A program made the translations under genes and the position numbers. Shown one piece after another: positions 28,120 to 36,600 of a stretch of 64,000 bases of DNA (within the stretch, counting starts at the first letter, position 1; every line of letters starts with the position of its first letter). Where the stretch lies: NCBI GenBank assembly GCA_002704915.1, contig PAIP01000078.1:1-64000 (forward strand). Direction: 5' to 3'. The notes under the pieces were generated by a model. That model ran no database searches. It was given only the letters and a program-made list of their open reading frames with translations, and was not told where the DNA came from. The stretch comes from Parvularcula sp. (GTDB taxonomy: Bacteria; Pseudomonadota; Alphaproteobacteria; Caulobacterales; Parvularculaceae).

Positions 28120-29384
28120 TGACCGGCGGTGTTGCAGATATAATGGACTCATTGGCGGCGAAGGCGCGCGCTGCTTCGCGCGTCATGGCGTCCGCCTCAA
28201 CGGAACGCAAAAACGCGGCCCTCACCAAAGCCGCGGCGCTTGTTCGCGAGCGCGCCGGTGAAATCCTGGAAATCAACGCCGTCGATGTCTCCGCTGCAAA
28301 ATCCAAGGGTCAGGACGCCGCCTTTATCGACCGCATGGAGCTCGACCCCGGCCGGATCGAAGGGATCGCGGAGGCGCTGGAGAATGTTGCGGCCCTCGAC
28401 GATCCGGTGGGCAAATCCATTTCGAAATGGTCGCGCCCGAACGGTCTTGAAATCGAGCGGGTGCGAACGCCTATCGGCGTCATCGCAGTCATCTATGAAA
28501 GCCGTCCGAACGTCACCGTCGATGCGGCCGCGATTGCGGTGAAAGCCGGCAACGCCGTCATCTTGCGCGGCGGATCGGAATGCATCCGCACCTCGAAAGC
28601 CCTCTATGATTGCTTCCGCGATGCGCTTAAAACAGCGGGCTTGCCCGAAGGCGCGGCGCAGTTTGTGGAAACAACCGACCGCGCCGCCGTGGGGGCCCTG
28701 TTGTCCGGCCTTGGCGGGCGCATCGACCTCGTCATTCCGCGTGGGGGCAAGTCGCTTGTGGCTCGCGTGCAGGAGGAGGCGCGCGTGCCCGTGCTCTCTC
28801 ATCTCGACGGCGTCTGTCATGTCTATGTTGATCGCGATGCGGATCCGAAAAAAGCCGTGGAGATTGCCGTCAATTCAAAGATGCGGCGCACCGGGATCTG
28901 CGGCGCTGCTGAGACTTTGTTGATCGACAAAGCCATTGCAGAAGAGATCTGGCCGAAACTCGCCAGCGCGCTTCGGAGCAAAGGCTGCGAGCTGCGAGGC
29001 GACGAGGCCTTGCGGGCGATTGATCCCGACCTCGCGCCTGCGAGCGAAGAGGATTTTTATACGGAATATCTGGCGCCCATTCTTTCGGTTGCGGTAGTCG
29101 ATGGCGTCGCTGGTGCCATTGAGCACATTGCGAAATATTCCTCCTCACACACCGAATCCATCGTCACGGAAAACGAAGCGACGGCGAAGCGGTTCCTTAC
29201 CGAAGTCGACAGCGCCATCGTCATGCACAACGCCTCGACGCAATTCGCCGATGGCGGCGAGTTCGGTCTCGGCGCGGAAATCGGCATCGCCACGGGCCGT
29301 CTTCACGCCCGCGGCCCCGCCGGCGTCGAGGAACTCACCACCTATAAAAATGTGGTGCGCGGGACGGGGCAGGTGCGTCCGTAA
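28119..29384 (+). CDS. proA: Gamma-glutamyl phosphate reductase
   Basis: 421 residues from ATG 28119; GAGGAG lies exactly 6 bases upstream, better than the GTG at 28116. The ATG overlaps the proB stop by one base (TGATG). Aldehyde-dehydrogenase superfamily marks: YESRPNVTVDAAAIAVKAGN, ILRGGSE, catalytic Cys in RRTGICGAAETLL, and EFGLGAEIGIATGRLHARGP. It reduces gamma-glutamyl phosphate to the semialdehyde for proline. Coupled with proB. Confidence 0.97.
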   Translation: MTGGVADIMDSLAAKARAASRVMASASTERKNAALTKAAALVRERAGEILEINAVDVSAAKSKGQDAAFIDRMELDPGRIEGIAEALENVAALDDPVGKSISKWSRPNGLEIERVRTPIGVIAVIYESRPNVTVDAAAIAVKAGNAVILRGGSECIRTSKALYDCFRDALKTAGLPEGAAQFVETTDRAAVGALLSGLGGRIDLVIPRGGKSLVARVQEEARVPVLSHLDGVCHVYVDRDADPKKAVEIAVNSKMRRTGICGAAETLLIDKAIAEEIWPKLASALRSKGCELRGDEALRAIDPDLAPASEEDFYTEYLAPILSVAVVDGVAGAIEHIAKYSSSHTESIVTENEATAKRFLTEVDSAIVMHNASTQFADGGEFGLGAEIGIATGRLHARGPAGVEELTTYKNVVRGTGQVRP

Positions 29385-29614
29385 TTTGGGCCGCCAGCCG
29401 ATCTGATTCAGGTGAGAGCATATTCTGCTAATTCTGCGCGCACGCTGAGCGCCCCCATCGAAAAAAATGACCAAAACGGGCATTTTTTCCTTGTTTGTTA
29501 ACAGGCCCGGATGTAAGCGGGTTCTGCGCTGCAAAAACGGCGCGAAAGAGTAGTGAAATGCGGGTTTTGGCGGATATCAGCATGAAGGGAGAGGGCGCGG
29601 TTATCGCGGACCCG

Positions 29615-29701
29615 ATGCTTATGGCTGTATCCACTGTTGTGCTCGTACTCGTACTCCTTATTAGCCCCGTACGGGGAGCGGCCATGGAGCCCGCGCGCTA
29701 G
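29615..29701 (+). CDS. ilv operon leader peptide (attenuator)
   Basis: 28 codons from ATG 29615 to TAG 29699-29701; starts at 29582 or 29621 are equally possible because none has a strong Shine-Dalgarno. The core VVLVLVLLISPVRGAA has nine consecutive Val/Leu/Ile codons and resembles the E. coli ilv leader (VVVIIIPPCGAALG). Ribosomes stalled there for lack of charged branched-chain tRNA would free GGGAGCGG (29674-29681) to pair with CCGCTCCC (29728-29735), blocking the terminator; fast ribosomes let the terminator form. Confidence 0.88.
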   Translation: MLMAVSTVVLVLVLLISPVRGAAMEPAR

Positions 29702-29726
29702 TTTAGCACGACGGACCTCCGGACAG

Positions 29727-29754
29727 CCCGCTCCCGAAAGGAAGCGGGTTTTTT
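29727..29754 (+). terminator. ilv attenuator terminator
   Basis: CCCGCT (29727-29732) pairs with AGCGGG (29743-29748), extended by CC/GG, and is followed by six T. Its 5' arm overlaps CCGCTCCC, which can instead pair with GGGAGCGG inside the leader-peptide coding sequence. It lies 41 bases before the ilvD ATG. Confidence 0.88.
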
Positions 29755-29794
29755 CATGCCCGGCGGTCCGTTCAGAAAAGAACGAACGGACGAG

Positions 29795-31474
29795 ATGACG
29801 ACAAAACGATCAGATGCAATCACCAAGGGACCCGCCAAGGCGCCGGCGCGGGCGATGCTGCGCGCCACGGGGCTCGGCGATGAAGAACTTTCAGGTCCCA
29901 TCATCGCCGTCGTGAACACATGGTCCACAGTGACGCCCTGCAATATGCATCTCGACCAATTGGCCGCGCCCGTGCGCGAGGGCATTCGCGAAGGCGGCGC
30001 GACGCCGGTCGACTTCAACACCATCGTCGTTTCCGACGGCATCACCATGGGCGGCGAGGGAATGCGCGCCTCGCTGATCTCGCGCGAAGTGATCGCCGAC
30101 TCCATTGAATTGGCCGTACGCGGACATTCCCTCGACGCCGCTGTCATTCTGGTCGGCTGCGACAAGACATTACCTGCGGCGGCGATGGCCCTGGCGCGCA
30201 TGGATATTCCCGGCGTCATTTTCTATGGCGGCACGATCATGCCGGGGCACTGTAAATTCCGCGGCGAGGAAAAAGATCTCTCTATTCAGGATGTGTTCGA
30301 GGCGGTCGGCGCTCATGCGAAGGGCGATTATTCCGACGAGGAACTCGACCAGATCGAACGCAAGGCCTGTCCCGGCGCTGGCGCCTGCGGCGGCCAGTTC
30401 ACGGCGAACACCATGGCCATGGCGCTGGCGTTTTTAGGGCTTGCCCCCATCGGCGCGGGCGATCCGCCGGCAATTGCGGAGGAAAAAGCCGCCGAGGGCG
30501 TTCGCTGCGGCCGGCTGGCGGCGGAACTGGTGAAACAAGGCAAGACCGCGCGCCAGTTTATTTCGGAAACATCCTTGCGCAACGCCGCCGTTTCGGTCGT
30601 TGCATCCGGCGGCTCCACCAATGCCGTGTTGCATCTCGCGGCCATTGCAGCCGAAGCCGGCGTTCCCTTCTCCATCGATCTCTTTGATGAGCTGTCGCGC
30701 TCAACGCCGGTGATCTCCAATCTGAAACCCGGCGGTCAATATCTGGCGAAAGATCTTTACGCGGCGGGCGGCGTGCGCCTCTTCGGCCAGAAGCTGATGG
30801 AAGGCGGCAAGATCGCCGATGCGCCGACAGTATCGGGCAAGTCGCTCTTCGACGAATTCAAAACAGCGGAGGAAACGCCGGGCCAGAAGGTCGTGCATGC
30901 CGTCGCTGATCCGTTCAAAGAAACAGGCGGCCTCAGAATTCTTTACGGCGATCTCGCGCCTGAAGGCGCGGTCTTGAAAACCGCCGGTTACGCCGACGGC
31001 GCCTTTGAAGGAACCGCGCGCGTCTTTGAGGGCGAAGAGGCTGCGTTCAAAGCCGTCAACGACCGCCAGATCAAGGAAGGCGATGTGGTCGTCATCCGTT
31101 ACGAAGGGCCGAAAGGCGGGCCCGGCATGCGCGAGATGCTGGCGACGACCGCCGCGGTTGCAGGCCAGGGACTTGCAGGCAAGGTGGCGCTCATTACCGA
31201 TGGCCGTTTCTCCGGCGCCTCGCACGGCTTTGTCATCGGTCATGTCGCGCCCGAAGCGGCGGCCGGCGGGCCCATCGGGCTTTTGCAGGACGGCGACAGA
31301 ATCCGCATTGATGCGGAAACGCGCCGCATCGACGCCGATATCGATTGGGAGGCGCGCCGCGCAAGCGTGGTTCCCAAAGCGCCGAACCGCATGGGCGGTG
31401 TTTTCGACAAATACGCGAAACTTGTTTCCTCGGCGTCCAAAGGCGCCGTCACTATCGACATATCCAACGAGTAA
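29795..31474 (+). CDS. ilvD: Dihydroxy-acid dehydratase
   Basis: 559 residues from ATG 29795; the ATG at 29756 abuts the attenuator T-run and would put the start inside the terminator. Three Fe-S cysteines: TPCNMHLDQL, VGCDKTLPAAAMA and CPGAGACGGQFTANTM. Length and cysteine pattern fit the short, probably [2Fe-2S], dehydratase class. It makes 2-keto acids for valine and isoleucine. First structural gene behind the ilv attenuator. Confidence 0.96.
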   Translation: MTTKRSDAITKGPAKAPARAMLRATGLGDEELSGPIIAVVNTWSTVTPCNMHLDQLAAPVREGIREGGATPVDFNTIVVSDGITMGGEGMRASLISREVIADSIELAVRGHSLDAAVILVGCDKTLPAAAMALARMDIPGVIFYGGTIMPGHCKFRGEEKDLSIQDVFEAVGAHAKGDYSDEELDQIERKACPGAGACGGQFTANTMAMALAFLGLAPIGAGDPPAIAEEKAAEGVRCGRLAAELVKQGKTARQFISETSLRNAAVSVVASGGSTNAVLHLAAIAAEAGVPFSIDLFDELSRSTPVISNLKPGGQYLAKDLYAAGGVRLFGQKLMEGGKIADAPTVSGKSLFDEFKTAEETPGQKVVHAVADPFKETGGLRILYGDLAPEGAVLKTAGYADGAFEGTARVFEGEEAAFKAVNDRQIKEGDVVVIRYEGPKGGPGMREMLATTAAVAGQGLAGKVALITDGRFSGASHGFVIGHVAPEAAAGGPIGLLQDGDRIRIDAETRRIDADIDWEARRASVVPKAPNRMGGVFDKYAKLVSSASKGAVTIDISNE

Positions 31475-31495
31475 AGGCGAGAGGGATTTTAAGAC

Positions 31496-32506
31496 ATGAA
31501 AGTCTATACGGAAGATGATGCAAACCCGGCGATTGTGAAGAACGATGTCGTCGCCGTCATCGGTTATGGCAGCCAGGGACGCGCCCACGCGCTGAACCTG
31601 CGCGACTCGGGCTGCAAGGTGATTGTCGGCGTGCGTCCGGGCGGCCCCGGCGCGAAGCGCGCGGAAGAAGACGGGCTTGAAGTCGCCAATGTCGCCGATG
31701 CGACGAAACAGGCGAAGCTGATCGCCGTCCTGACGCCCGACATGACCCATGAGCAGATTTTCAATGAACAGATCGCGCCGAACCTGAAAGACGGCGACGC
31801 GCTTCTCTTCGCCCACGGCTTTACGGTGCTGTATGGCCGCGTCGTGCCGCCGTCGAATGTGGACGTCATCATGGTCGCGCCGAAAGGCCCTGGCGGTCTC
31901 GTGCGTTCCGAATATGAGCGCGGCCGCGGCGTGCCGAGCCTCTTCGCCATCCATCAGGATGCGACGGGGCAAGCAAAAGACAAGGCGCTTGCTTACGCCA
32001 GTCTTATCGGCGGCGCGTCGGCAGGCGTTATCGAGACGACCTTCCGCGAAGAAACCGAAACCGATCTTTTCGGCGAGCAGGCGGTCCTTTGCGGCGGCGC
32101 CTCGGAGCTCGTCATCGCCGGTTTCGAAACGCTGGTGGAAGCCGGTTATCAGCCGGAGATCGCCTATTACGAATGCCTGCACGAATTAAAGCTGATCGTC
32201 GATCTCTTCTATGAGGGCGGCATCACGCGCATGCATGATTTCATTTCCGAGACGGCGAAATATGGCGATTTCGTTTCCGGTCCCCGCGTTATCAACGCAG
32301 AAACCAAGCAGCGGATGAAGGAAGTCCTGACCGATATTCAGAACGGATCTTTCGCCCATGACTGGATCGTCGAAAACCAGGCCGGCAAGGTCCGCTACAA
32401 CCAGATGCTGCGCGCCGATCTGGAGCATCCCATCGAAAAGACCGGCAAGGAGCTGCGCGCGCGCATGTCCTGGTTGAAGCCGGGCGCTAACACCAAACCC
32501 GATTGA
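31496..32506 (+). CDS. ilvC: Ketol-acid reductoisomerase, class I
   Basis: 336 residues. NADPH motif [31 protein letters not shown], the magnesium ligands in [19 protein letters not shown], and [17 protein letters not shown]. It isomerises and reduces acetolactate and acetohydroxybutyrate. 21 bases after ilvD with AGAGGGA before the ATG. Confidence 0.97.
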
Positions 32507-32527
32507 TATCCGAAACTGAGGCCCATC

Positions 32528-34321
32528 ATGACTGCTTCTCAAACGAAACAAGAGACAAAGACGGCGGCGATCACGAAGTCGGGCGCCGAACTTCTCCTTG
32601 ATGCGCTGGAGGAGCAGGGGGTCGAAGTGATTTTCGGCTATCCCGGCGGCGCTGTGCTGCCGATCTATGACGCGCTTTATGCGCGCGATACGATCCGCCA
32701 CATTCTGGTGCGTCACGAACAGGGCGCCCTGCATGCGGCGGAGGGTTATGCGCGGTCGACGGGCAAGGTCGGCGTTGCGCTGGTGACGTCGGGGCCCGGC
32801 GCCACCAACGCCGTTACGGGTCTTGCGGATGCGTTGCTCGATTCCATCCCGGTCGTTTGTATTTCCGGACAGGTGGCGCGTCCCCTGATCGGCACGGACG
32901 CCTTTCAGGAATGCGACACAACGGGCATCACCCGGTCCTGCACCAAGCATAACTATCTTGCGAAATCGGCGCACACCCTGTCATCGACGGTGCATGAAGC
33001 ATTTCATGTGGCGCGCAACGGACGCCCGGGGCCGGTCCTCATCGACATCCCCAAGGACATTCAGTTTGAGAGCGCGCAATACACCTCCCGCTCCGACGCC
33101 CGCAATCGCAACTGTATCGTCACGCCGGAGGTCAACAAGAATCAGATCGACCAGGTTGTCGATTTGATGCGCTATGCGCGCCGGCCGGTGCTCTATACCG
33201 GGGGCGGGGTGATCAATGCCGGGCCGGAAGCCTCCAAAATATTGCGCGAGCTTGCGAGTGCTACGGGCTTTCCGGTGACGTCGACCCTCATGGGGCTCGG
33301 CGCCTTTCCGGCTTCCGATCCGCAATGGCTCGGCATGCTCGGCATGCATGGGAGCTACGAGGCGAACAACGCCATGCATGACTGCGATCTGATGATCGCC
33401 ATCGGTGCGCGTTTTGACGACCGCGTCACGGGCCGGCTTGACGCCTTCTCGCCCAATTCGCGGAAAATCCACATCGATATCGATCCGTCTTCGATCAACA
33501 AGAACGTGCCCGTCGATATCGGCGTCATCGGCGACGCTGGCGCGATTATGGAAGCGATGCTCGCGGAGTGGAAACGTCGCGACAAGGAAGAAACCCATGA
33601 TCGCGCGCGCATCGAAGGCTGGCTTGAGCAGATCGACGGCTGGCGCGCGCGCAAGTCGTTCCACTACAAGAACTCGAAAGACGCCATCAAACCGCAATAT
33701 GCGGTCGAGCGTCTTTATGAACTGACCCGCGGCAAGGATGTCTATGTGACGACGGAAGTGGGCCAGCACCAGATGTGGGCGGCGCAGTTCTTTCATTTCG
33801 ACGAGCCGAACCGCTGGATGACGTCCGGCGGGCTCGGCACCATGGGCTATGGCCTGCCGGCGGCCCTCGGCGTTCAGGCGGCGCATCCGGACGCTCTCGT
33901 CATCGACATCGCCGGGGACGCGTCGGTCCAGATGACCATGCAGGAGATGTCGGCGGCGATCCAGCATGATCTGCCCATCAAGATTTTCATCCTGAACAAT
34001 GCTTACCTTGGCATGGTGCGCCAGTGGCAGGAGCTTCTCCATGGCGGGCGCTATTCTCATTCCTATTCCGACAGCTTGCCGGATTTCGTAAAGCTTGCCG
34101 AGGCCTATGGCGGCCATGGCATCCGCACGGAGAAGCCGGACGAACTCGACGCCAAGATCATCGAGATGATCGAATCGCCGAAACCGGTTCTGTTCGACTG
34201 CGTCGTGACGCAGGAAGAAAACGTCTTCCCGATGATCCCGTCGGGCGCCGCGCATAACGAAATGCTGTTCGGCGAGATGAAGGAAGACTCCGTTTCGGAG
34301 CAGGGGAAGACGCTGGTATGA
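32528..34321 (+). CDS. ilvB: Acetolactate synthase, large subunit
   Basis: 597 residues of the thiamine-diphosphate family. VIFGYPGGAVLPIYDAL, activating Glu in LVRHEQGALHAAEGYA, SGPGATN, the FAD region, and the ThDP motif GDASVQMTMQEM...FILNNAYLGMV. It condenses pyruvate with pyruvate or 2-ketobutyrate, the committed step of Val/Leu/Ile synthesis. 21 bases after ilvC and overlapping ilvH by 4 bases. E. coli has three isozymes (ilvB, ilvG, ilvI); the symbol here is generic. Confidence 0.96.
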   Translation: MTASQTKQETKTAAITKSGAELLLDALEEQGVEVIFGYPGGAVLPIYDALYARDTIRHILVRHEQGALHAAEGYARSTGKVGVALVTSGPGATNAVTGLADALLDSIPVVCISGQVARPLIGTDAFQECDTTGITRSCTKHNYLAKSAHTLSSTVHEAFHVARNGRPGPVLIDIPKDIQFESAQYTSRSDARNRNCIVTPEVNKNQIDQVVDLMRYARRPVLYTGGGVINAGPEASKILRELASATGFPVTSTLMGLGAFPASDPQWLGMLGMHGSYEANNAMHDCDLMIAIGARFDDRVTGRLDAFSPNSRKIHIDIDPSSINKNVPVDIGVIGDAGAIMEAMLAEWKRRDKEETHDRARIEGWLEQIDGWRARKSFHYKNSKDAIKPQYAVERLYELTRGKDVYVTTEVGQHQMWAAQFFHFDEPNRWMTSGGLGTMGYGLPAALGVQAAHPDALVIDIAGDASVQMTMQEMSAAIQHDLPIKIFILNNAYLGMVRQWQELLHGGRYSHSYSDSLPDFVKLAEAYGGHGIRTEKPDELDAKIIEMIESPKPVLFDCVVTQEENVFPMIPSGAAHNEMLFGEMKEDSVSEQGKTLV

Positions 34322-34884
34322 CCGCCCAAAGTTCAAAAAGCGGCGCCCAATCCCAATCGGTCTATCCGGTCACGCGCGAGGAAAGCGCAGAGCGGGAGGT
34401 CATTCTCGCTGTCATCGTCGACAACGAGCCGGGCGTCCTGTCGCGCGTCGTGGGGCTCATTTCCGCCCGCGGCTATAATATCGAGAGCCTGACGGTCGCC
34501 GAAACCGACATGGAGAAACACACCTCGCGCATTACCGTGGTGACGCAAGGCACGCCCTCGAAGATCGAGCAGATCAAGGCGCAGTTGGGCCGGTTGGTGC
34601 CCGTGCGCCGCGTCATTGATGTTTCTGCGGAGACGGACGCGCTTGAACGAGAACTGGCGCTGGTCAAGGTCGTCAATGAAGGCGATCAGCGCGTCGAAGC
34701 TATGCGCCTCGCTGACATCTTCCGCGCCCGCGCGTTGGACACGACGCATACGTCTTTTGTTTTCGAGATCACGGGCGCGCGTGAAAAGATCAATGCGTTT
34801 ATCGATCTGATGAAGCCATTGGGTCTGTCGGAAGTCTCTCGCACCGGCGTGTTATCCATCCGCCGCGGCGTTGAAAGGGATTAG
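34318..34884 (+). CDS. ilvH: Acetolactate synthase, small (regulatory) subunit
   Basis: 188 residues. An ACT domain (ILAVIVDNEPGVLSRVVGLISARGYNIESL) binds valine for feedback inhibition; a second ferredoxin-like C-terminal domain follows. Slightly longer at the N-terminus than E. coli IlvH. ATGA overlap with ilvB gives coupled synthesis. The leu leader peptide starts 4 bases after its stop. Confidence 0.95.
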   Translation: MTAQSSKSGAQSQSVYPVTREESAEREVILAVIVDNEPGVLSRVVGLISARGYNIESLTVAETDMEKHTSRITVVTQGTPSKIEQIKAQLGRLVPVRRVIDVSAETDALERELALVKVVNEGDQRVEAMRLADIFRARALDTTHTSFVFEITGAREKINAFIDLMKPLGLSEVSRTGVLSIRRGVERD

Positions 34885-34888
34885 CGTC

Positions 34889-34945
34889 ATGACTGGTCAT
34901 TTTAGAAAACGATTTCTCAATCTGCTCCTTAGCCCCGCGCGGTGA
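34889..34945 (+). CDS. leuA leader peptide
   Basis: Eighteen-residue ORF MTGHFRKRFLNLLLSPAR, starting four bases after ilvH and ending 57 bases before leuA. AAAGGGA lies 9 bases before its ATG. Four of five consecutive codons are leucine (CTC AAT CTG CTC CTT), as expected of a leucine-sensing leader. The stem CGCGCGG/CCGCGCG (about 34936-34958) overlaps its end. No T-run follows, so the control could be Rho-dependent or act on leuA translation. The ending LLLSPAR resembles LLISPVR of the ilv leader. Confidence 0.8.
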   Translation: MTGHFRKRFLNLLLSPAR

Positions 34946-35001
34946 AATCTCCGCGCGATAGAAGTTGGCGTTATGAAGGAACAGAACGAAGGAATTTAAA
35001 A

Positions 35002-36600
35002 ATGACCAAGACCGAAACAGAAGAAAGCGACGTAAAGGCGAAAGACGCCGGCCACGTAAAAATCTTCGACACGACCCTGCGTGACGGAGAACAGGCGCCC
35101 GGTTTTTCCATGTCGACTGACGCGAAAATCATCGTCGCCCGCGCGCTCGAGGCGCTGAATGTGGATATTATCGAAGCGGGCTTTGCGGCGGCGTCGCCGG
35201 GTGATGCGGCTGCGATCTCCACCATCGCCAGGGAAATTGAGGGGCCCACTATCGGCTCCCTGGCGCGCCTTAACAAGAACGACATCGAGGCTGCCGCGCG
35301 CGCTATTGAGCCGGCCAGAAAAAAACGCATTCACACTTTTATCGGCACGAGCCCGCTTCATCGCGATGCGAAGCTGAAAATGACGAAGGATGAGATCCTG
35401 AAACAGATTTCAGAGGTTGTCGCCTTCGCGCGTTCCGCTTGCGACGATGTCGAATTTTCACCGGAAGACGCTATTCGCACCGAGCGGGATTATCTCATCG
35501 AAGCCGTGGAAGCCGCGATTGAGGCCGGCGCACGCACCATCAATATCCCCGACACCGTCGGCTACACGACGCCGGAAGAAATCACCGATCTTTTCCGGTT
35601 CCTGAACGAAAAGGCAAAAGGCGCCGAAAAGGTGACCTTCTCCGCACACTGTCATGACGATCTCGGCATGGCGGTCGCGAATTCGCTCGCGGCGGTTCGC
35701 GGCGGCGCGCGCCAGATCGAGTGCGCCGTCAACGGCATTGGCGAGCGCGCCGGCAATTGCTCGCTGGAAGAGGTGGTAATGGCGCTCGCAACGCGCCGCG
35801 ACTTTTTCAATGCAGACACCCAGGTCGATACGACAAAGATTTACGCCGCGTCGACAGCGCTTGCGCGCGTGACCCATAATCCGATCCCGCGCAACAAGGC
35901 GATTGTGGGCCGCAACGCCTTTGCCCATGAGGCGGGCATTCACCAGCATGGCGTGCTTGCCGACAAGCGCACCTATGAGATCATGGATGCGGAGAAGGTC
36001 GGCGTGCCGTCGAATGCTCTGGTGCTGGGCAAGCATTCGGGCAAGCATGCCGTGGCCGCGCGGGTGAAAGCGCTGGGCTTTAACGTCTCGAAAGAAAAGA
36101 TCGAGGATATCTTCCCGAACTTCAAAAAACTCGCAGATACGGCGAAGGAAGTCACCGACGCCGATCTTGTGAGGCTTGTCACCGGCAATGCTGCGGTTGA
36201 CGGGCGCGCTGGTCCGTGGCGCATGCGCAAGACCGAACTGCACGTGGATTTCGAGGATGACACGCGCCCCCATGCGCGCGTCACCATGGAACACGATAAT
36301 GGCGAGCGCCGTACTGTGACCCATGAAGGCGAGGGGCCCATCGATGCAGCTTTCGCCGCCGTTTGCGCCATCGCCGATGTGCCGGGACGCATTCATACGC
36401 TCGACCTGCATCACCTGGCGGCGGAAGGCGTCGTGCGCGCGGAGGCGATTGTCGATGTGGACGGCAAGCAGTTTTCCGGCAAGGCCCAGGAAGTGGACAT
36501 TGCGGACGCCGCCGTGGCGGCCTTTGTGGCGGCGATCAATCAGGCTGCTGCGATCCGTTCTGGCGCATTTTCTTTTCCTAATGAGGCTGCGGCGTCATGA
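35002..36600 (+). CDS. leuA: 2-isopropylmalate synthase
   Basis: 532 residues from ATG 35002 (AAGGA 8 bases upstream; the frame can be extended to 34942 but that part overlaps the leader structure). FDTTLRDGEQAPGFSMS, the metal-binding HCHDDLGMAVANSLAA, and GIHQHGVLADKRTYEIM place it in the standard family; the C-terminal 130 residues are the leucine-binding LeuA dimer domain. It condenses acetyl-CoA with 2-ketoisovalerate. Overlaps leuC by 4 bases. Confidence 0.97.
   Translation: MTKTETEESDVKAKDAGHVKIFDTTLRDGEQAPGFSMSTDAKIIVARALEALNVDIIEAGFAAASPGDAAAISTIAREIEGPTIGSLARLNKNDIEAAARAIEPARKKRIHTFIGTSPLHRDAKLKMTKDEILKQISEVVAFARSACDDVEFSPEDAIRTERDYLIEAVEAAIEAGARTINIPDTVGYTTPEEITDLFRFLNEKAKGAEKVTFSAHCHDDLGMAVANSLAAVRGGARQIECAVNGIGERAGNCSLEEVVMALATRRDFFNADTQVDTTKIYAASTALARVTHNPIPRNKAIVGRNAFAHEAGIHQHGVLADKRTYEIMDAEKVGVPSNALVLGKHSGKHAVAARVKALGFNVSKEKIEDIFPNFKKLADTAKEVTDADLVRLVTGNAAVDGRAGPWRMRKTELHVDFEDDTRPHARVTMEHDNGERRTVTHEGEGPIDAAFAAVCAIADVPGRIHTLDLHHLAAEGVVRAEAIVDVDGKQFSGKAQEVDIADAAVAAFVAAINQAAAIRSGAFSFPNEAAAS

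Follow-up and report, generated by a model that had tools for sequence, protein, structure and literature searches.

The junction between ilvH and leuA in the ilv-leu gene string of Parvularcula sp. is probably a ribosome-controlled intercistronic translational attenuator, which would raise the translation of leuA when charged tRNA-Leu is short. The junction lies in a window of 64,000 nucleotides (contig PAIP01000078.1), to which all positions refer and on whose forward strand all of the features described below are found. It holds a short leader ORF with Leu codons, MTGHFRKRFLNLLLSPAR, part of which is predicted to pair with the region of the leuA Shine-Dalgarno (SD) sequence. Translation of the leader, a response to leucine and the direction of control are what we infer from this ORF, from its conservation, from the joint change of its pairing partners between relatives and from the exposure of the SD region that is predicted when a ribosome is placed on the Leu codons.

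The ilv-leu locus

The gene order was found to be ilvD, ilvC, ilvB, ilvH, leader, leuA, leuC, leuD and leuB, and all eight ilv and leu genes exceed the curated NCBIfam cut-offs for these functions. The gene for the acetolactate synthase small subunit, ilvH (34318-34884, stop codon 34882-34884), was recognised by its ORF, its translation and NCBIfam. It is followed after a gap of 4 nt by the leader (34889-34945), a conserved frame with its ATG at 34889 and its TGA at 34945, and a further 56 nt separate the leader stop from the ATG at 35002 of leuA, which encodes 2-isopropylmalate synthase (35002-36600; ORF, and NCBIfam above cut-off). The leader is thus where the earlier note had placed it, 4 bases behind ilvH and ahead of leuA. 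The leuA SD sequence, GAAGGAA (34988-34994), was assigned by eye. Downstream, leuC shares 4 nt with leuA and 1 nt with leuD, so that control of leuA translation could spread.

Another small ORF in the same interval, MKEQNEGI (34973-34999), ends 2 nt before the leuA ATG and probably arose by chance, its start being absent in locus L017 and its end altered in L015 (both by eye). Among named relatives the most similar LeuA proteins were those of Marinicaulis sp. and other Parvularculaceae assemblies. Outside the family, the LeuA matches examined (35002-36600; 80 retained of 581, found via exact peptide patterns) were more often gammaproteobacterial than alphaproteobacterial, a hint that this leuA was transferred horizontally long ago. 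A search for a plasmid-borne copy of the leuA leader gave no match.

Conservation of the leader frame

The leader stood up to the comparison of relatives that the earlier note had proposed. A search for LeuA in 60 relatives gave a match in 49 of them, at 50 places, all of which were taken with their flanks. A match to ilvH was present just upstream of leuA at 24 of these places, all in the genus of the window (L005-L027 and L115; 23 genomes, one with two), and was not found within the flank examined at the other 26. Three of the 28 genomes of the genus were without a LeuA match at the cut-off used and two had only a more distant LeuA without ilvH. A CTTA core is present at all 24 same-genus junctions, 64-76 nt ahead of the start of leuA. 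When the frame of the invariant CTT was followed back to the ilvH stop no stop codon was met in 525 codons, against 52 in 1,062 codons of the other two frames (32/526 and 20/536; Fisher p 9e-10, a value that is too small since the rows are related). The frame is open over ilvH-to-CTT lengths of 23 to 206 nt, the long stretches (139-206 nt) being those of L006, L007, L008, L018 and L019, and an in-frame start codon lies between -8 and +5 nt from the ilvH stop at all 24 junctions (22 ATG, and GTG in L006 and L007). The conserved open frame and a start so near the ilvH stop argue for translation of the leader and for a link between its start and the end of ilvH. On these comparisons the leuA leader ORF is real and selected, and not a product of chance. 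In L006 and L007 the long stretch between ilvH and the core contains GC-rich palindromes (CCCCGGCGAAAGCCGGGG in L006), with the leader frame still open.

The same layout was recovered, via model R1, at six more loci from two other genera of the family (L149-L154), with ilvH upstream at all six and leuA downstream at five, L149 stopping at a contig edge. Here the leader frame had no stops in 88 codons, compared with 6 in 180 codons of the other frames. A family-wide LeuA search gave a match in 52 of 62 genomes, and the core pattern was absent from all eight further family loci hand-picked from it. Two of the eight, with ilvH before leuA, hold degenerate copies (L186 retains CGACTTAACCCGCGCGG and L188 CGACTTAGC), L187 starts at a contig edge and five are without ilvH at that place. 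Across the order, model R1 matched 18 of 398 genomes, all of them from the window's family (12 training-row genomes and six new), and across the class none of 385. Model R2, made from seven junctions, matched nine of the 398 genomes of the order (seven training and two new) and one of the 385 of the class, namely the window's own; its two new matches, G016 and G021, are of another type, outside its training set. Since R1 reaches the genome of the window only at E 3.4, each model can hardly detect the other type, and the near-absence of matches in the class speaks for close forms only.

Predicted pairing with the leuA Shine-Dalgarno region

Duplex energies, RNAalifold and the fold of the window all predict that the SD region of leuA pairs with a segment inside the leader ORF. 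It is clear from comparison of the relatives that the segment around the CTT and its partner in the SD region vary jointly: the pairs are CTTAGTCC/GGACTAAG, CTTATTCCC/GGGAATAG in L016, TCCTTATC/GATAAGGA in L011 and L014 (GATAAGG in L014) and, in the window type, CTGCTCC/GGAACAG. Over 24 junctions the mean duplex energy of CTT segment and SD region was -11.4 kcal/mol for own-genome partners versus -8.4 kcal/mol for cross-genome partners, and none of 20,000 partner permutations reached the own-genome mean. Exceptions were L021, where the duplex is weak (-6.6), L008 (-8.3 versus -8.6 with strangers) and L020, which uses another register. With mononucleotide shuffling of the SD arm as the reference, the mean z was -1.8, with -1.0 for the window and positive values at two of the 24 (L008 and L021).

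RNAalifold, unprompted, predicted both an inner GC hairpin and the SD helix from a 13-locus and from a 7-locus set. In the 13-row alignment, where the aligner shifted row L016 by one column, the structure pairs 93.8% of cells; shuffling gave 89.0%, with none of 500 shuffles reaching the real value, and shifts of 1 to 3 columns gave 28.6-43.3%. The number of double-changed cells and the covariation score likewise exceeded those of all 500 shuffles, while the count of pairs with a double change was matched in 37 of the 500 and the pair-type count in every one. Double changes fell in four pairs of the inner hairpin and in none of the SD helix; in the 7-row alignment they were confined to one pair, again of the inner hairpin, and the covariation term was unfavourable. 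It is therefore mainly between types that the two sides of the SD helix vary jointly.

The types differ in how the Leu codons meet the SD sequence. The window type has its conserved helix just upstream of the SD and not on it. In this type and in L011 and L014 several Leu codons in a row are predicted to pair with the SD or beside it, and the arm of the CGACTTAGTCCC type includes just one. The LeuA proteins of 29 loci (L149 gave too little protein) were placed on a tree rooted at the midpoint and with six forks open. On it the CGACTTAGTCCC type is found at several points within the window's genus and also in the other genera; interspersed with it are the window type and the TCCTTATC type (L011/L014 and, apart from them, L020), and the change in L016 lies inside a CGACTTAGTCCC group. 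We read about four rebuildings of the pairing on this tree, which also suggests that the CTCCTTAGCCCC type of the window arose within the leuA-leader lineage.

Transcription or translation

A leader of this kind could act on transcription instead, as a ribosome-dependent attenuator working via Rho or via an unrecognised terminator between ilvH and leuA, and this we consider unlikely. It has precedent, transcription being the classical target of leu and ilv leader-peptide attenuators in proteobacteria, and the ilvD leader of the same operon looks like an attenuator of that sort; Rho action, moreover, is not readable from sequence. The earlier note had seen no intrinsic terminator, and that observation held. 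A scan of 29300-36000 gave no promoter-like or terminator-like site on the forward strand between ilvH and leuA, the first forward terminator site being at 35780, a silence that is weak alone since the terminator of the ilvD leader, though evident, went undetected by the scan too. Nor was a T run of at least four found between the CTT codon and leuA in the window, or in 23 of the 24 same-genus junctions. What speaks against Rho as the main path is that the conserved partner is the SD region of leuA and that the partners vary jointly, neither of which is needed by a Rho mechanism.

The ilvD leader is built otherwise. Its ORF (29615-29701) encodes a peptide of 28 residues, MLMAVSTVVLVLVLLISPVRGAAMEPAR, rich in Val and Leu, and is followed by a terminator (29727-29754) formed of inverted repeats (arms 29727-29735 and 29740-29748) and then a T run; a putative antiterminator arm, GGGAGCGG (29674-29681), matches CCGCTCCC at 29728-29735. 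The same GC stem and T run were recognised by eye in 20 of 21 same-genus ilvD loci, the window included, whatever their type of leuA leader. The one exception, L175, is cut at a contig edge with no leader visible; L178, of the same genus, was left out. Two ilvD loci from another family of the order also have a stem and T run (by eye). Judged from its sequence, the device before ilvD is a terminator attenuator, conserved in the genus and unlike the leuA leader.

The end of the leuA leader had been thought in the earlier note to mirror the ilv leader, as if one were derived from the other. A likeness of the two sequences does exist once a 3-base gap is allowed (CTCCTTAGCCCC versus CTCCTTATTAGCCCC), and the letters CTCCTTA and AGCCCC that are common to both leaders may be due to similar codons and constraints. 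Derivation of the leuA leader from the ilvD leader was not supported, nor was it disproved: the ilvD attenuator is genus-wide regardless of the leuA type, and the leuA type common to other genera, CGACTTAGTCCC, is not ilv-like.

Predicted fold and simulated ribosomes

The minimum-energy fold of 34880-35030 is one long hairpin of -38.9 kcal/mol. Its outer helices join 34886-34888 to 35010-35012 and the outer arm TGGTCATTTT (34894-34903) to 34999-35008, the latter a 10-nt perfect inverted repeat that gives 10 perfect pairs across the leuA start codon. Further in, GATTTCTC (34911-34918), which includes the first Leu codon, is the predicted partner of the SD region (34988-34996). It is followed by helices of 34921-34929 with 34977-34985, 34930-34935 with 34967-34973 and 34936-34942 with 34951-34957. 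The first of these three belongs to TCTGCTCCTT (34921-34930), the segment of Leu Leu Leu codons, and to its partner AAGGAACAGA (34976-34985), which lies just upstream of and adjoins the leuA SD; it is these partners that vary jointly in relatives. The last is a GC-rich hairpin, CGCGCGG/CCGCGCG (34936-34957), with the leader stop codon in its loop and paired changes in relatives. For the fold of 34860-35030 z was -2.1, with 5 of 200 shuffles as stable.

In the free RNA of the window the SD core GGAA (34991-34994) and the ATG have an unpaired probability of at most 0.05. The predicted cost of opening 34984-35004 is 12.8 kcal/mol in the free RNA, and with a ribosome-sized block, of assumed size, it is 1.9 with the block on CTC 34916, 9.0 on CTG, 7.2 on CTT and 9.1 on the leader stop. 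A block on CTT leaves the SD core unpaired with probability 0.82-0.93 while the ATG stays paired (unpaired at most 0.06), because the outer stem lies upstream; a block on the first CTC leaves the SD unpaired at 0.46-0.82 and the ATG partly so (0.33-0.40). Over 30 loci the mean opening energy of the leuA start region was 9.7 kcal/mol in the free RNA, 5.5 with the CTT block, 8.7 with an upstream block and 6.3 with the CTT segment shuffled, the free value exceeding the shuffled one at 27 loci. The gain from the CTT block, in silico, was about 1 kcal/mol or more at 25 of the 30 and less at five; one of the five, L017, showed the opposite behaviour (4.1 free, 7.7 with the CTT block). An upstream block equalled or bettered the CTT block at eight of the 30 loci, including the window (6.0 versus 7.3). 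Hiding of the leuA start, one of two mechanisms that the earlier note had considered, is the one backed by these predicted folds and by the pairing that varies jointly between relatives.

Leader peptides and Leu codons

The C-terminal parts of the leader peptides at the 30 loci fall into a few forms: LLLSPAR at seven, LLLITAR or LLITAQ at three, RLSPA at 18 (L149-L154 among them), RLIPA in L016 and RLTTA in L021. In the window the Leu codons are CTC 34916, CTG 34922, CTC 34925 and CTT 34928. Leu accounts for 98 of 591 leader codons over the 30 loci, and for 59 of 279 in the up to 11 codons before the invariant CTT, compared with 7.7% in ten window genes; the start rule used in the Leu count picks the short form of long leaders (in L008 a late TTG, though an ATG stands 1 nt after ilvH). 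Leaders with one Leu codon number three of the 30, with two nine and with three seven, so that the description "leucine-rich" fits the window and its nearest kin but not all relatives, 12 of the 30 having one or two. Every one of the 30 has an in-frame Leu codon at one and the same position of the pairing segment. The earlier suggestion that leucine sets leuA apart from ilvDCBH can be kept in so far as there is a selected leader with Leu codons suitably placed; leucine specificity of the control is no more than plausible, given the 12 leaders with one or two Leu codons.

In the CGACTTAGTCCC type (e.g. L010, L022 and L149-L154) the codon before the invariant CTT is constantly the Arg codon CGA, and its pairing partner is not constant. 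CGA is rare in the ten window genes (12 of 246 Arg codons), and one explanation for its constancy would be that ribosomes pause there, ahead of the Leu codon.

Coupling that takes no account of leucine, in which the sole role of the leader is to pass ribosomes on from ilvH to leuA, or that of the hairpin to fix the ratio of leuA to ilvH translation, is in our estimate improbable as well. It would suit a leader that starts at most a few bases away from the ilvH stop, the few Leu codons of many relatives and those leaders that end near leuA (-4 nt in L021 and 4 nt in L027), and reinitiation at leader genes has been proposed in general terms in one published account (PMC4833913). However, the distance from leader stop to leuA start, at its 56 nt in the window, ranges from -4 to 58 nt over the 30 loci, so that close reinitiation is not a conserved feature, and neither a Leu codon at a fixed place of the pairing nor the Leu enrichment upstream of it would be expected from coupling alone. 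At L022-L027 and L115 the leader continues through the inner hairpin and stops 4-31 nt before leuA, and there reinitiation may add to the control.

That a small molecule or a protein reads the structure, with the ORF incidental, is very improbable: a protein-binding role is the one favoured for the similar actinobacterial LEU element in its authors' discussion (PMC1262725), but the leader frame described here is kept across the full spread of ilvH-to-CTT lengths, the invariant columns of the 13-row alignment lie nearly all in helices, the CGA codon or the start codon (the 7-row alignment is too uniform to judge), and no Rfam family matched at the leuA leader at E up to 5. This silence of Rfam, which gave two weak matches elsewhere on the other strand, is supporting rather than defining, as the ilvD leader is without an Rfam match too.

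A model for the ilvH-leuA junction

Translational attenuation at the junction would proceed as follows. Ribosomes that end ilvH probably restart on the leader. When charged tRNA-Leu is plentiful the Leu codons would be passed fast, the ribosome would leave and the leader RNA would refold, the segment of Leu codons binding the leuA SD region and, in the species of the window, the first leader codons pairing with the leuA start codon, so that leuA would be poorly translated. When charged tRNA-Leu is short a ribosome would wait on the Leu codons and cover the sequestering arm, freeing the leuA SD; a wait on the first Leu codon would partly free the leuA start codon too. The overlaps of leuA with leuC and of leuC with leuD would extend the rise of LeuA under leucine shortage to LeuC and LeuD. 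The ilvD attenuator would set the transcription of the whole string, and the leuA leader would then trim the leucine branch.

A wider reading, to which we lean with rather less assurance, is that the element is a family-specific intercistronic translational attenuator in which the arm of Leu codons and the leuA SD region slide and are rebuilt together, with about four pairing solutions around one invariant CTT. It would have reached the design of the actinobacterial LEU element independently and would give the operon two checks, on transcription at ilvD and on translation at leuA.

Relation to known systems

The erm and cat resistance genes are controlled by translational attenuators: the SD of the following gene is set free when a ribosome stalls on the leader ORF. 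The same release would operate at the leuA leader, where the signal is probably uncharged tRNA-Leu rather than an antibiotic. In the classical leu and ilv attenuators, such as leuL and ilvL of E. coli, a short peptide contains codons for the end product of the pathway, as does the leuA leader; they differ in that no terminator or antiterminator was found at the leuA leader, where the SD region of the next gene is predicted to be sequestered.

Nearest in design is the actinobacterial LEU element, which in the published description has an upstream ORF with Leu codons and a base stem of Leu codons and leuA SD (PMC1262725). That account, of 2005, reported pairing of the leuA SD with the run of Leu codons and mutation data that disagreed with classical attenuation, and left the mechanism unclear; the literature searched contained no later work on the element. 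As described, the LEU element precedes leuA operons and has a pseudoknot or, alternatively, another inner fold (PMC1262725), whereas the leader of the window has one inner hairpin (only nested folds were computed), lies between ilvH and leuA within an ilv-leu string and has its start tied to the ilvH stop. The likeness between the two may be convergent. The leuA leader was not filed as a member of the LEU element, membership of which would take the pseudoknot and common descent, or of the classical leu attenuators, whose terminator was not found.

Leader ORFs with codons for the amino acid that is sensed have been described elsewhere. The uORFC-8-2 motif before cysS in Rhodobacterales is an alphaproteobacterial case, read by its authors, in the account consulted, as ribosome-mediated attenuation (PMC8632094); it differs from the leuA leader in its amino acid, cysteine, in standing before a tRNA synthetase gene and in its structure. 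The cysteine-responsive leader ORFs of mycobacteria (Canestrari 2020) are alike in the codons for the sensed amino acid and, as reported, differ in amino acid, phylum and leaderless start. No published account of an ilvH-leuA leader element was found in the literature searched, and the leuA leader is probably a previously undescribed form of translational attenuation.

Amino-acid attenuation in proteobacteria is usually described as control of transcription. The comparative data point to a leader of this same kind that controls translation, set in an operon where the first leader appears to be a transcription attenuator. As a second case, probably independent and with clear changes of partner, the junction would make the idea of pairing between Leu codons and the SD directly testable, and across the family it shows a pairing register rebuilt while the coding frame was kept.
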